A stretch of 47,562 nucleotides of DNA. Source: Deltaproteobacteria bacterium. GTDB taxonomy: Bacteria; Desulfobacterota; Desulfobaccia; Desulfobaccales; 0-14-0-80-60-11. Under the pieces are notes generated by a model. That model saw nothing but the letters and a program-made list of their open reading frames with translations, was not told the origin of the DNA and searched no databases. The stretch lies in the NCBI GenBank assembly GCA_021813445.1, contig JAKAKP010000154.1, positions 1 through 47,562 on the forward strand, written 5' to 3'. Position numbers and translations under genes: made by a program. Each line of letters opens with the position of its first letter. The first letter of the stretch is position 1. Shown here in pieces: positions 6,885 through 14,506 of this stretch.

Positions 6885-6943
6885 CTATCAGCTATCAGCT
6901 ATCAGCTATCAGCTATTAGCTATCAGCTATTAGCTGTCAGCTA
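6885..6943. repeat. Heptad tandem array, unit CTATCAG (8 units)
   Basis: Eight contiguous 7-bp units (CTATCAG four times, then CTATTAG, CTATCAG, CTATTAG, CTGTCAG) start eight bases after the stop codon of the hydrolase. The array is an inverted partner of the array at 7069-7096, with a GGGCGGAC/GTCCGCCC palindrome (6985-7006) between them. Confidence 0.95.
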
Positions 6944-7068
6944 AAAAATAGACAAAAAAAACGTCAAAGATATTCTTTATGTAGGGGCGGACCCGCGTGT
7001 CCGCCCATGGGGGTTGCCAATAGGGCTATGTCCCTATAATCAGGAAGCGATAATTGGCGTTTATTGTA

Positions 7069-7096
7069 AGCTGAAGGCTGAAAGCTGACAGCTTAC
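7069..7096. repeat. Heptad array in front of recJ (AGCTGAA type)
   Basis: Four 7-bp units (AGCTGAA, GGCTGAA, AGCTGAC, AGCTTAC) end 16 bases before the recJ start. The reverse complement resembles both the 6885 array and the array just after recJ, so recJ is bracketed by inverted heptad arrays. The GGGGGAG ribosome site lies between this array and the ATG. Confidence 0.9.
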
Positions 7097-7112
7097 TACT
7101 GGGGGAGTATTA

Positions 7113-8819
7113 ATGCGCCGCAAGAAGCGCTGGCAGGTGCATCCGGAGCAGCCGGACGCGGTGCGGGAGTTGAGCGCCCGGCACGGGGTGCCGCCTTTGA
7201 TCGCCCGCATCCTCTTGAACCGCGGCCTCGCCGATCCCGAGGACATCCTGGCCTTTCTGGAGCCGAACCTGGAGCGGCTGCATCCTCCCTTTGCCCTGCC
7301 CGACCTGGAGAAGGCCGCGGCCCGGCTGGGGGAGGCGGTGCGGCGGCGGGAGACGGTGGCCGTCTATGGGGACTACGATGTGGACGGCCTCACCTCCACC
7401 TGCCTGCTCCACCAATTCCTCCGGGAATTGGGGCTCCCTTGTCTGACCCATATCCCCGACCGCCTCCGGGAAGGCTATGGTCTGAAGATTCCGGCGCTTC
7501 AGGAACTGGGCCGCCGGGCCCGGCTGCTGGTGACGGTGGACTGCGGCATCAGCGACGCCGGGGAGGTGGCCTGGGCCCGGGAGCAGGGCTTGGAGGTGAT
7601 TGTCACCGATCACCATGAGCTGCCCCCGGAACTGCCCCCGGCCCTGGCGGTGGTCAATCCCAAGCGGGGGGGCGAGGACTACCCTTTTCCGGATCTGGCC
7701 GGGGTGGGGGTGGCCCTGCTTCTGGCCCTGGGGGTCCGGGCCAACTTAAGGGAGAGCGGCTGGTTCAAGAAACACCCGGAGCCCAACCTCAGGTCCTACC
7801 TGGACCTGGTGGCCCTGGGCACGGCCGCGGATGTGGTCCCCATGGTGGGGGAAAACCGCATCCTGGTGCGCCAGGGTCTCAAGGTCCTGGAGGAGAGCCG
7901 CCGCCCCGGGTTGGTGGCCCTAAAGGAAGCCGCGGGCCTGGAGGGGAAACCCATCTCCTACCGGGACGCCGTCTTTCGCCTGGCGCCCCGCCTCAATGCC
8001 GCGGGGCGTCTGGGCCAGGCCCGGGCGGCTCTGGAGCTGCTCCTGAGCGAGGACCTGGCCCAGGCCAGAACCCAGGCCCGGTACCTCACCGATCTCAACC
8101 GGGAGCGGCAGGGTCTGGAAGAGATGGTTCTGCGCCAGGCCCTGGCCCTGCTGCGGGCTCCGGGGATGATGGACCGGCGGGTCTGGGTCCTGGCCGGGGA
8201 GGGCTGGCATCCGGGGGTGCTGGGGATCGTGGCCGCGCGGCTGGCGGAGGAGCATCAGCGGCCCGTGGCCCTGGTGAGCCTGGCGGACGGCCAGGGCCGG
8301 GGCTCGGCCCGGAGTGTTGAGGGGTTTCATCTCTTCCGGGGGCTCCATGCCTGCCGGCAGCTTTTATCCAGATACGGCGGACACGAGGCGGCCGCGGGCT
8401 TTGAAATGGCGGCCGCGGACCTGGCGGCCCTGCAAGAGGGATTGGAGCAGGCCCTGGAGCAGCAAGTGGGGCCGGAGCCCCTGAAGCCTACCCTGAAAGT
8501 GGACGCCCAGGTGGACCTGGGGGATTTGGATAGCCAGTTTTACCAGCATCTGGAGCGCCTGCGGCCTTTTGGGCCCGGCAACCCGGAGCCGGTGCTGGCG
8601 TGCGCCGGGGTGGAGTGCCTTACTTCCCGGGTGGTGGGGGAGAGGCACCTGAAGGTGCGGCTGGCCCAGAACGGCTGCCTGACGGAGGCCATCGCCTTTG
8701 ACATGGCTGCCTGTCATCCCCTCTCCGGCGCCCTGGAAGTGGCCTTCAGCCCCAGATTCTCTTACTTCCAGGGGCGGCTGCATCCGGAACTGCGGGTGCT
8801 GGATTGGGGGAAGGTATAA
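7113..8819 (+). CDS. recJ: Single-stranded-DNA-specific exonuclease RecJ
   Basis: A 568-residue protein of normal RecJ length. It is the 5'-3' single-strand exonuclease used in recombination, mismatch and base-excision repair, acting in the cytoplasm with SSB. The DHH phosphoesterase motifs are present: VYGDYDVDG (84-92), VDCGIS (142-147) and VTDHHE (164-169), followed by the DHHA1 and OB-fold parts (GHEAAAGFEM and RPFGPGNPEPVL near residues 430-495). The ATG follows GGGGGAG at a good distance. ssb lies next downstream, which fits the known RecJ-SSB partnership, although a heptad array and about 160 bp separate them. Confidence 0.96.
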   Translation: MRRKKRWQVHPEQPDAVRELSARHGVPPLIARILLNRGLADPEDILAFLEPNLERLHPPFALPDLEKAAARLGEAVRRRETVAVYGDYDVDGLTSTCLLHQFLRELGLPCLTHIPDRLREGYGLKIPALQELGRRARLLVTVDCGISDAGEVAWAREQGLEVIVTDHHELPPELPPALAVVNPKRGGEDYPFPDLAGVGVALLLALGVRANLRESGWFKKHPEPNLRSYLDLVALGTAADVVPMVGENRILVRQGLKVLEESRRPGLVALKEAAGLEGKPISYRDAVFRLAPRLNAAGRLGQARAALELLLSEDLAQARTQARYLTDLNRERQGLEEMVLRQALALLRAPGMMDRRVWVLAGEGWHPGVLGIVAARLAEEHQRPVALVSLADGQGRGSARSVEGFHLFRGLHACRQLLSRYGGHEAAAGFEMAAADLAALQEGLEQALEQQVGPEPLKPTLKVDAQVDLGDLDSQFYQHLERLRPFGPGNPEPVLACAGVECLTSRVVGERHLKVRLAQNGCLTEAIAFDMAACHPLSGALEVAFSPRFSYFQGRLHPELRVLDWGKV

Positions 8820-13786: not shown

Positions 13787-13815
13787 TTGACAGGGACAAG
13801 GGACCTCTTTAAGCT
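13787..13815 (+). promoter_or_regulatory. Probable promoter of the cobalamin riboswitch transcript
   Basis: A perfect -35 TTGACA (13787-13792) is followed after 17 bp by TAAGCT (13810-13815), which keeps the most conserved first, second and last bases of the -10 box. The start point would fall just ahead of the riboswitch P1 stem at 13831. Confidence 0.6.
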
Positions 13816-13830
13816 AGAACCCATAGAGAA

Positions 13831-13992
13831 GATGGGTACCCCTGCCGGGGTTTAAAAGGGAAGCCGGTGGAAAGCCGGCACGGTCCCGCCGCTGTAGCCG
13901 GGGACGAAACCTGCGAGAAGCCACTGTTTCCTTTAGGGAAACGGGAAGGCGCAGGGCTGAGGATGATCCGGAAGTCAGAAGACCTGCCCATC
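13831..13992 (+). ncRNA. Cobalamin riboswitch aptamer
   Basis: The P1 stem GATGGG (13831-13836) pairs perfectly with CCCATC (13987-13992). Between them are the conserved core blocks in order: AAAAGGGAAGCCGGTGGAAA, GCCGGCACGGTCCCGCC, GCTGTAGCCGGGGA, and the closing AGTCAGAAGACCTGCC. These are the class-defining sequences of the adenosylcobalamin-binding riboswitch (B12 element). The aptamer appears intact. Confidence 0.95.
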
Positions 13993-14005
13993 GGTTATGG
14001 CCCGC

Positions 14006-14116
14006 GTCCCCGCGGAAGGGACTGAAGGCCGGTCCGGGGGTCAAGCCCCGGACTCCCCTGGGATCAAGAAAGCTGGGTGCCATCCCTGGGTCTTTGCGGA
14101 CCCGGGGATTTTTTTT
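14006..14116 (+). terminator. Expression platform with intrinsic terminator
   Basis: After the aptamer come two strong hairpins (GTCCC/GGGAC at about 14006-14022; GTCCGGGG/CCCCGGAC at 14032-14053). An 11-bp terminator stem follows, ATCCCTGGGTC (14082-14092) with GACCCGGGGAT (14099-14109), running into eight Ts (14109-14116). This is the layout expected for transcriptional attenuation by the riboswitch. Confidence 0.88.
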
Positions 14117-14142
14117 GCCCAGAACGCGGCGGGCGCCAGGGG

Positions 14143-14225
14143 AGCGAGCAGTTAGCAGTAAGCAGTTAAAAAGAAAGCATGATCTGTCTTTTTTACTGCT
14201 CACTGCTTACAGCTTGCTGCTTACT
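14143..14225. repeat. Inverted heptad element, AGTAAGC/ACTGCTT type
   Basis: Left arm 14143-14163 (AGCGAGC, AGTTAGC, AGTAAGC, then AGTTAAA). Right arm 14195-14222 (ACTGCTC, ACTGCTT, ACAGCTT, GCTGCTT). The loop is A/T-rich, about 25 nt. The element closely resembles the one at 10417-10496 and sits inside the leader between the riboswitch terminator and the gene at 14246. Confidence 0.9.
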
Positions 14226-14245
14226 AAACTAAAAAGGAGGGTTTT

Positions 14246-14506
14246 ATGAAGGACGGTCTGATCGTTTATCTGGTGAGTGCGCCCGGTCTGCCGGAGGAGT
14301 TCGATGCCTCCGCCGCCACTAAGGATCTGGGCTACACCGCGGATCGGGTGGAAATGGTGGCCCCGGACCAGGGCTTCTTCACGGTGGAGGATGCCTGGCA
14401 CTTTCTTTTGACCCGGGGCTGCGGCCGCATCCGCCTGCTGGTGGGCCAGGCTGAGGGCTCGGACCACCTCCACCCCTTAGGCCCCGTCGTGCGCCTGTAC
14501 GGATAA
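14246..14506 (+). CDS. Small protein of unknown function downstream of the cobalamin riboswitch
   Basis: An 86-residue soluble protein with an excellent ribosome site (AAGGAGG before TTTTATG). It reads as one alpha/beta domain: a first strand DGLIVYLVSAP, an Ala-rich helix (FDASAATKDLGY), a helix around TVEDAWHFLLTRGCGR, and a strand IRLLVGQAEG. I do not recognise a family and it does not look like a known cobalamin biosynthesis or transport protein. As the only gene in the 400 bp after the riboswitch on this strand, it is the candidate regulated gene, though the heptad element lies between them. It converges with the next gene, five bases apart. Confidence 0.7.
   Translation: MKDGLIVYLVSAPGLPEEFDASAATKDLGYTADRVEMVAPDQGFFTVEDAWHFLLTRGCGRIRLLVGQAEGSDHLHPLGPVVRLYG

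Follow-up and report, generated by a model that had tools for sequence, protein, structure and literature searches.

A 47,562-nucleotide (nt) contig of a Deltaproteobacteria bacterium (JAKAKP010000154.1, assembly GCA_021813445.1; hereafter, the window) carries a complete cobalamin riboswitch followed by a gene for an 86-residue protein that has, on sequence grounds, no named family in the libraries searched and is conserved across the Desulfobacterota. Its homologues are found predominantly behind cobalamin riboswitches, and the assignment of the small protein to a corrinoid/cobalt acquisition regulon is well supported. Profile comparison indicates that it likely descends from the type II sirohydrochlorin chelatase domain (CbiX/CfbA/CbiK group). 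The combined description, a riboswitch-controlled B12-regulon protein that is derived from a chelatase and acts as a non-catalytic cytoplasmic helper, is one that we regard as evenly balanced between right and wrong.

The regions around homologues of the small gene were fetched and scanned with Rfam, and 68 loci were counted, including the window. At 63 of these a cobalamin riboswitch lies on the same strand no more than 2.6 kilobases (kb) upstream, and in 60 cases the distance is at most 1.3 kb (the scripted count gave 61 and 58, respectively, of 67 loci, to which the window and locus L135 were added). The annotated start of the L135 gene is mis-extended through the riboswitch, and the domain proper begins roughly 208 nt past it. 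A sequence-only reading of the window had raised the possibility of a new B12-regulated function and had named homologues never lying near riboswitches as the refuting outcome; the opposite was found, and this linkage, together with the B12- and cobalt-related neighbours described below, supports that proposal. The naive probability of the linkage arising by chance was ~2e-104 for the first 37 loci, a figure that ignores relatedness and overstates independence because the loci are related; the linkage nonetheless spans many genera. Among the loci without a riboswitch, L043, L115 and L121 are situated within ~410 nt of a contig end, and at L076 the gene cbiZ lies upstream of the small gene.

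The home genome contains three copies of the small gene, all three behind a cobalamin riboswitch. Its other cobalamin riboswitches precede a cluster of btuC-like, ATP-binding cassette and binding-protein genes, a cbiK gene and a radical S-adenosylmethionine (SAM) gene; a further one, situated on contig C129, precedes a reading frame for a TonB receptor that is truncated at the contig end. Of the 29 genomes listed for the window's order, 28 contain homologues, several of them in more than one copy, and a profile built from 28 sequences recovered the family in 44 out of 395 genomes across the phylum, corresponding to 29 genera. A scan of named genomes returned matches labelled Deltaproteobacteria/Desulfobacterota, Syntrophales, Syntrophobacterales, Desulfobacca and similar, along with one uncultured bacterium; the scan used exact peptide patterns and says nothing of absence in other taxa. 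The reading frame evolves as a protein, with changes between close relatives mainly at third codon positions. Residues M1, G4, I6, Y8, W51, G58, R83, L84 and G86 are invariant or nearly so, and the protein has no signal peptide. No family in Pfam or NCBIfam matches the window protein, and searches of the literature, with subscription papers outside their reach, returned no description of the family. The sequence-only reading, which could place the protein in no cobalamin family, agrees with the outcome in these libraries, but a remote profile link to CbiX and CbiK gives the protein some relation to cobalamin enzymes.

The single-sequence fold prediction was poor (predicted local distance difference test, pLDDT, 51), and an alignment-based AlphaFold2 model was used instead (pLDDT 86, predicted template modelling score 0.78). 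The model comprises a beta-alpha-beta-alpha-beta arrangement followed by a C-terminal hairpin. Structural alignment with VIA-align gave its highest score, Z 5.0, for CfbA, which is a small sirohydrochlorin chelatase for nickel and cobalt; SirB reached Z 4.6, and both scores are weak. Profile–profile alignment with hhalign matched residues 2–65 collinearly to the CbiX catalytic domain with 86% probability (E 4.9e-6, from a single comparison) and to the catalytic C-terminal half of CbiK with 78%. The hhalign score of 32.9 stands against 17.7 for the best of 60 column-shuffled decoys, and CbiK ranks first among 13 real families drawn from the same loci. The N-terminal half of CbiK was also considered as an origin and was rejected at 1.2%. 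Neither PF01903 nor PF06180 gives a match for the window protein, and neither is listed for members of sets A2 or A4. A degenerate rhodanese (sulfurtransferase) domain was suggested by weak PDB profile matches, the best with E 0.0087, that involve rhodaneses and 3-mercaptopyruvate sulfurtransferase and cover residues 20–65 only; the corresponding hhalign probability is 2.7%, against 86% for CbiX, and the catalytic cysteine is not conserved. Rhodanese ancestry, which we judge very improbable, was dropped on the basis of this low probability and of the partial, weak PDB matches.

The relationship to CbiX, and the weaker structural one to CfbA and SirB, could conceivably indicate a small CbiXS-type chelatase with catalytic activity. 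In CbiXS from A. fulgidus, His10 and His74 both mediate catalysis (PMC7689651). At the position of the catalytic histidine of the GHGS motif, nearly all family members have G, D, S or N, with histidine in one of 67 sequences, while the segment bearing the second catalytic histidine is missing from the family, the C-terminal third of the chelatase domain having been lost. As equivalents of both metal-ligand histidines are missing, the small protein should not act as a chelatase, and we consider catalytic activity of this kind highly improbable.

The genes adjoining the small gene were examined at the 67 loci scanned locally, with Pfam checks. Same-strand neighbours include cbiK (26), a TonB receptor (18), FecCD (7) and cobN (2). 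Three arrangements recur: the riboswitch is followed by the small gene alone, as in the genus of the window; or by the small gene and then a TonB-dependent receptor; or the riboswitch is accompanied by cbiK, which precedes or follows the small gene and in some cases overlaps it. The home-genome paralogue on contig C129 sits behind cobN and a chlI/D-like gene. The CbiK proteins encoded in operons with the small gene have an N-terminal signal-like segment, judged by hydrophobicity, while second CbiK copies appear cytoplasmic. Because of these segments the operon proteins resemble the periplasmic CbiKP of Desulfovibrio, in which a cobalamin riboswitch is also reported (PMC11124144; PMC545781).

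These neighbourhoods bear on the main alternatives, namely a metallochaperone and a regulator or assembly partner of the co-transcribed genes. In the latter case the small protein would be, for example, a cytoplasmic factor that controls synthesis or export of CbiK or the TonB receptor and that binds no tetrapyrrole or metal itself. In several operons the start of the small gene overlaps the cbiK stop codon or lies no more than 9 nt from it, an arrangement suggestive of translational coupling, and the small protein lacks an export signal where its partners are exported. However, the gene is monocistronic in the window's genus, with no such partner adjacent, and its profile is that of an enzyme domain and unlike known chaperones; we hold this explanation to be rather unlikely. 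A role as metallochaperone or buffer for cobalt (or nickel), supplying cobalt to an early-insertion chelatase, would fit the proximity to cbiK and cobN, and position 52 is histidine in 38 of 67 sequences, with glutamate or glutamine at position 42 in 42 of 67. The family has no invariant cysteine, histidine or acidic metal site, though, and such a function also seems to us unlikely.

The linkage is held across many genera and in three arrangements, which makes it highly likely that the small protein supplies a missing component of B12 or cobalt acquisition or processing in these anaerobes. In our preferred reading it is a non-catalytic helper, a cytoplasmic pseudo-chelatase that under B12 scarcity would bind or hand over a cargo (corrinoid, tetrapyrrole or cobalt species) arriving by way of the co-regulated TonB receptor, a BtuCD-type permease and exported CbiK. 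More broadly, and more tentatively, we propose that phylum-wide, catalytically dead mini-chelatases could constitute new cytoplasmic corrinoid/tetrapyrrole carriers that participate with exported CbiK and the TonB receptor in cobamide/cobalt salvage. Several observations weigh against the combined description. The genus of the window itself has the small gene alone, without a partner gene. Exported CbiK and the small protein should not meet directly, because the latter has no signal peptide. L119, a true exception to the linkage, and L076 have no riboswitch despite the presence of upstream DNA, and low-threshold Rfam scans found none hidden there. A Foldseek search of the model against the PDB gave no significant match, and unrelated domains likewise reach Z 4 to 5 in structural alignment, those of pyruvate kinase and HisRS being near 5. 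The hhalign E-values come from single comparisons, with controls consisting of only 12 other real families and rhodanese.

Linkage to a riboswitch is among the strongest clues to the function of an uncharacterised gene. If the chelatase relationship is true, a cobalt-inserting enzyme domain has been reduced to a non-catalytic helper. The role of exported CbiK in these bacteria is itself not known to have been settled, and the small protein provides a fresh way of approaching it.

The riboswitch of the window is an ordinary member of the known RF00174 class, and the features of the locus are collected in Table 1. It is the sole Rfam match in the window, scoring far above the gathering score of 31.5 bits over the full length of the model, in agreement with the sequence-only reading. 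The P1 stem, read from the sequence, consists of 6 base pairs (bp; 13831–13836 with 13987–13992) and 5 bp (13821–13825 with 13996–14000). Since an internal loop splits these parts, P1 is not the perfect stem that had been described, though the remaining elements of that description are all in place. The predicted terminator begins approximately 76 nt past the aptamer. Its presence had been correctly noted, but the 11-bp stem and eight Ts reported earlier are revised by the folding tools to a 12-bp stem (14082–14109; -21.5 kcal/mol, z -4.59) and seven Ts. A corresponding terminator, located 53–90 nt past the aptamer, is present in 34 of the 35 leaders from the order. The 5' arm of the terminator can alternatively pair with an upstream segment to form an antiterminator, and this pairing is found in all 35 leaders (the window and relatives) with 4 to 9 continuous pairs. 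The antiterminator encloses the conserved loop CAAGAAAGCTGGGTGC (14065–14080), of which the motif CAAG..AAGCTGGGTGC is nearly invariant across the 35 leaders. As in other RF00174 expression platforms, a terminator and a competing antiterminator thus lie downstream of the aptamer, and both are kept in relatives. This layout is, as far as sequence can tell, the anatomy of a ligand-induced terminator, with the gene predicted to be off when B12 is present. Without ligand, the antiterminator (14056–14064 with 14082–14090) would form and the 86-residue protein would be made; when adenosylcobalamin is plentiful, the terminator would form instead and switch the gene off, if the response to ligand follows that of the riboswitch family.

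Table 1. Features of the riboswitch-controlled locus (positions in the window)
Feature	Position	Strand	Basis
Possible promoter: TTGACA (13787–13792), 17-nt spacer, TAAGCT (13810–13815)	13787–13815	+	Read directly
Cobalamin riboswitch aptamer (RF00174)	13817–14005	+	cmscan, 126.3 bits; model positions 1–189, complete
Antiterminator: 14056–14064 pairs with 14082–14090, one T-T mismatch	14056–14090	+	Pairing in 35/35 leaders
Intrinsic terminator: stem 14082–14109, then 7 T	14082–14116	+	Folding energy and terminator scan
Inverted heptad repeat, a dispersed genome repeat	14147–14230	.	Heptamer array count; hairpin fold, z -3.0
Ribosome-binding site AGGAGGG	14235–14241	+	Read directly
86-residue protein of B12-regulon family; putative remote, histidine-less type II chelatase domain	14246–14506	+	Homologues, riboswitch linkage, fold and profile comparison

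Comparison with known systems places the locus in context. It shares with other RF00174 riboswitches the complete aptamer, the terminator and the competing antiterminator, and differs in controlling a gene family absent from the literature searched and in the loop motif common to its leaders. The small protein resembles the type II chelatases CbiXS/CfbA, the C-terminal half of CbiK and SirB (PF01903, PF06180) in the profile of residues 2–65 (78–86%), in structural alignment at Z ~5 and in often lying beside cbiK; in contrast to these proteins of ~120 residues, it has 86, with neither of the two metal-ligand histidines and no C-terminal segment. In the B12 uptake loci of Bacteroides, BtuG and BtuH were likewise accessory proteins once of unknown function that adjoin B12 transport genes (PMC8941943), an analogy of discovery. 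BtuH, from Bacteroidetes, binds B12 directly (PMC8941943), and its likeness to the small protein lies in how it was found. The delta-proteobacterial B12 regulon has been described with a B12-element before cbiK-cbiL and btuCDF (PMC545781), so that riboswitch and types of neighbouring gene are shared with the family studied here; the available part of that paper does not mention the small gene.

The possible promoter was not listed by the consensus scan, and its second hexamer is weak. The 86-residue gene is the last on its strand before the strand flips, in keeping with the earlier reading of it as the only gene downstream; the next genes encode a 181-residue protein without clear family and then an NlpC/P60 protein. 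Since these are on the other strand, the small gene stands alone in the window. The inverted heptad element noticed earlier between terminator and gene is real: it is an inverted pair of heptamer arrays, (GCAGTNA)n, that folds as a hairpin. The array pattern has 205 matches in the home genome, against none for a reversed control pattern. A part in regulation was dropped in view of this count, and the element is a genome-wide dispersed repeat that is unrelated to the small gene and its regulation.

A number of further observations were made at the homologue loci. At L038 and L048, cobN and chlI/D-like genes are directly upstream of the riboswitch and of a 104-residue paralogue, which carries a C-terminal extension of ~18 residues. 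In the clade of L112–L119, the gene after the small one encodes a protein with nitrite/sulfite reductase 4Fe-4S and PCP_red domains and ferredoxin motifs, a hint of some connection to siroheme or tetrapyrroles. A shorter cobalamin-riboswitch match in the home genome (L042:6371–6509; 75.7 bits, model positions 47–167) precedes a radical SAM/SPASM gene (6886–8367). Lastly, two CRISPR-DR9 repeats are found at L046:4282–4392, near a homologue locus in a genome of the same genus.
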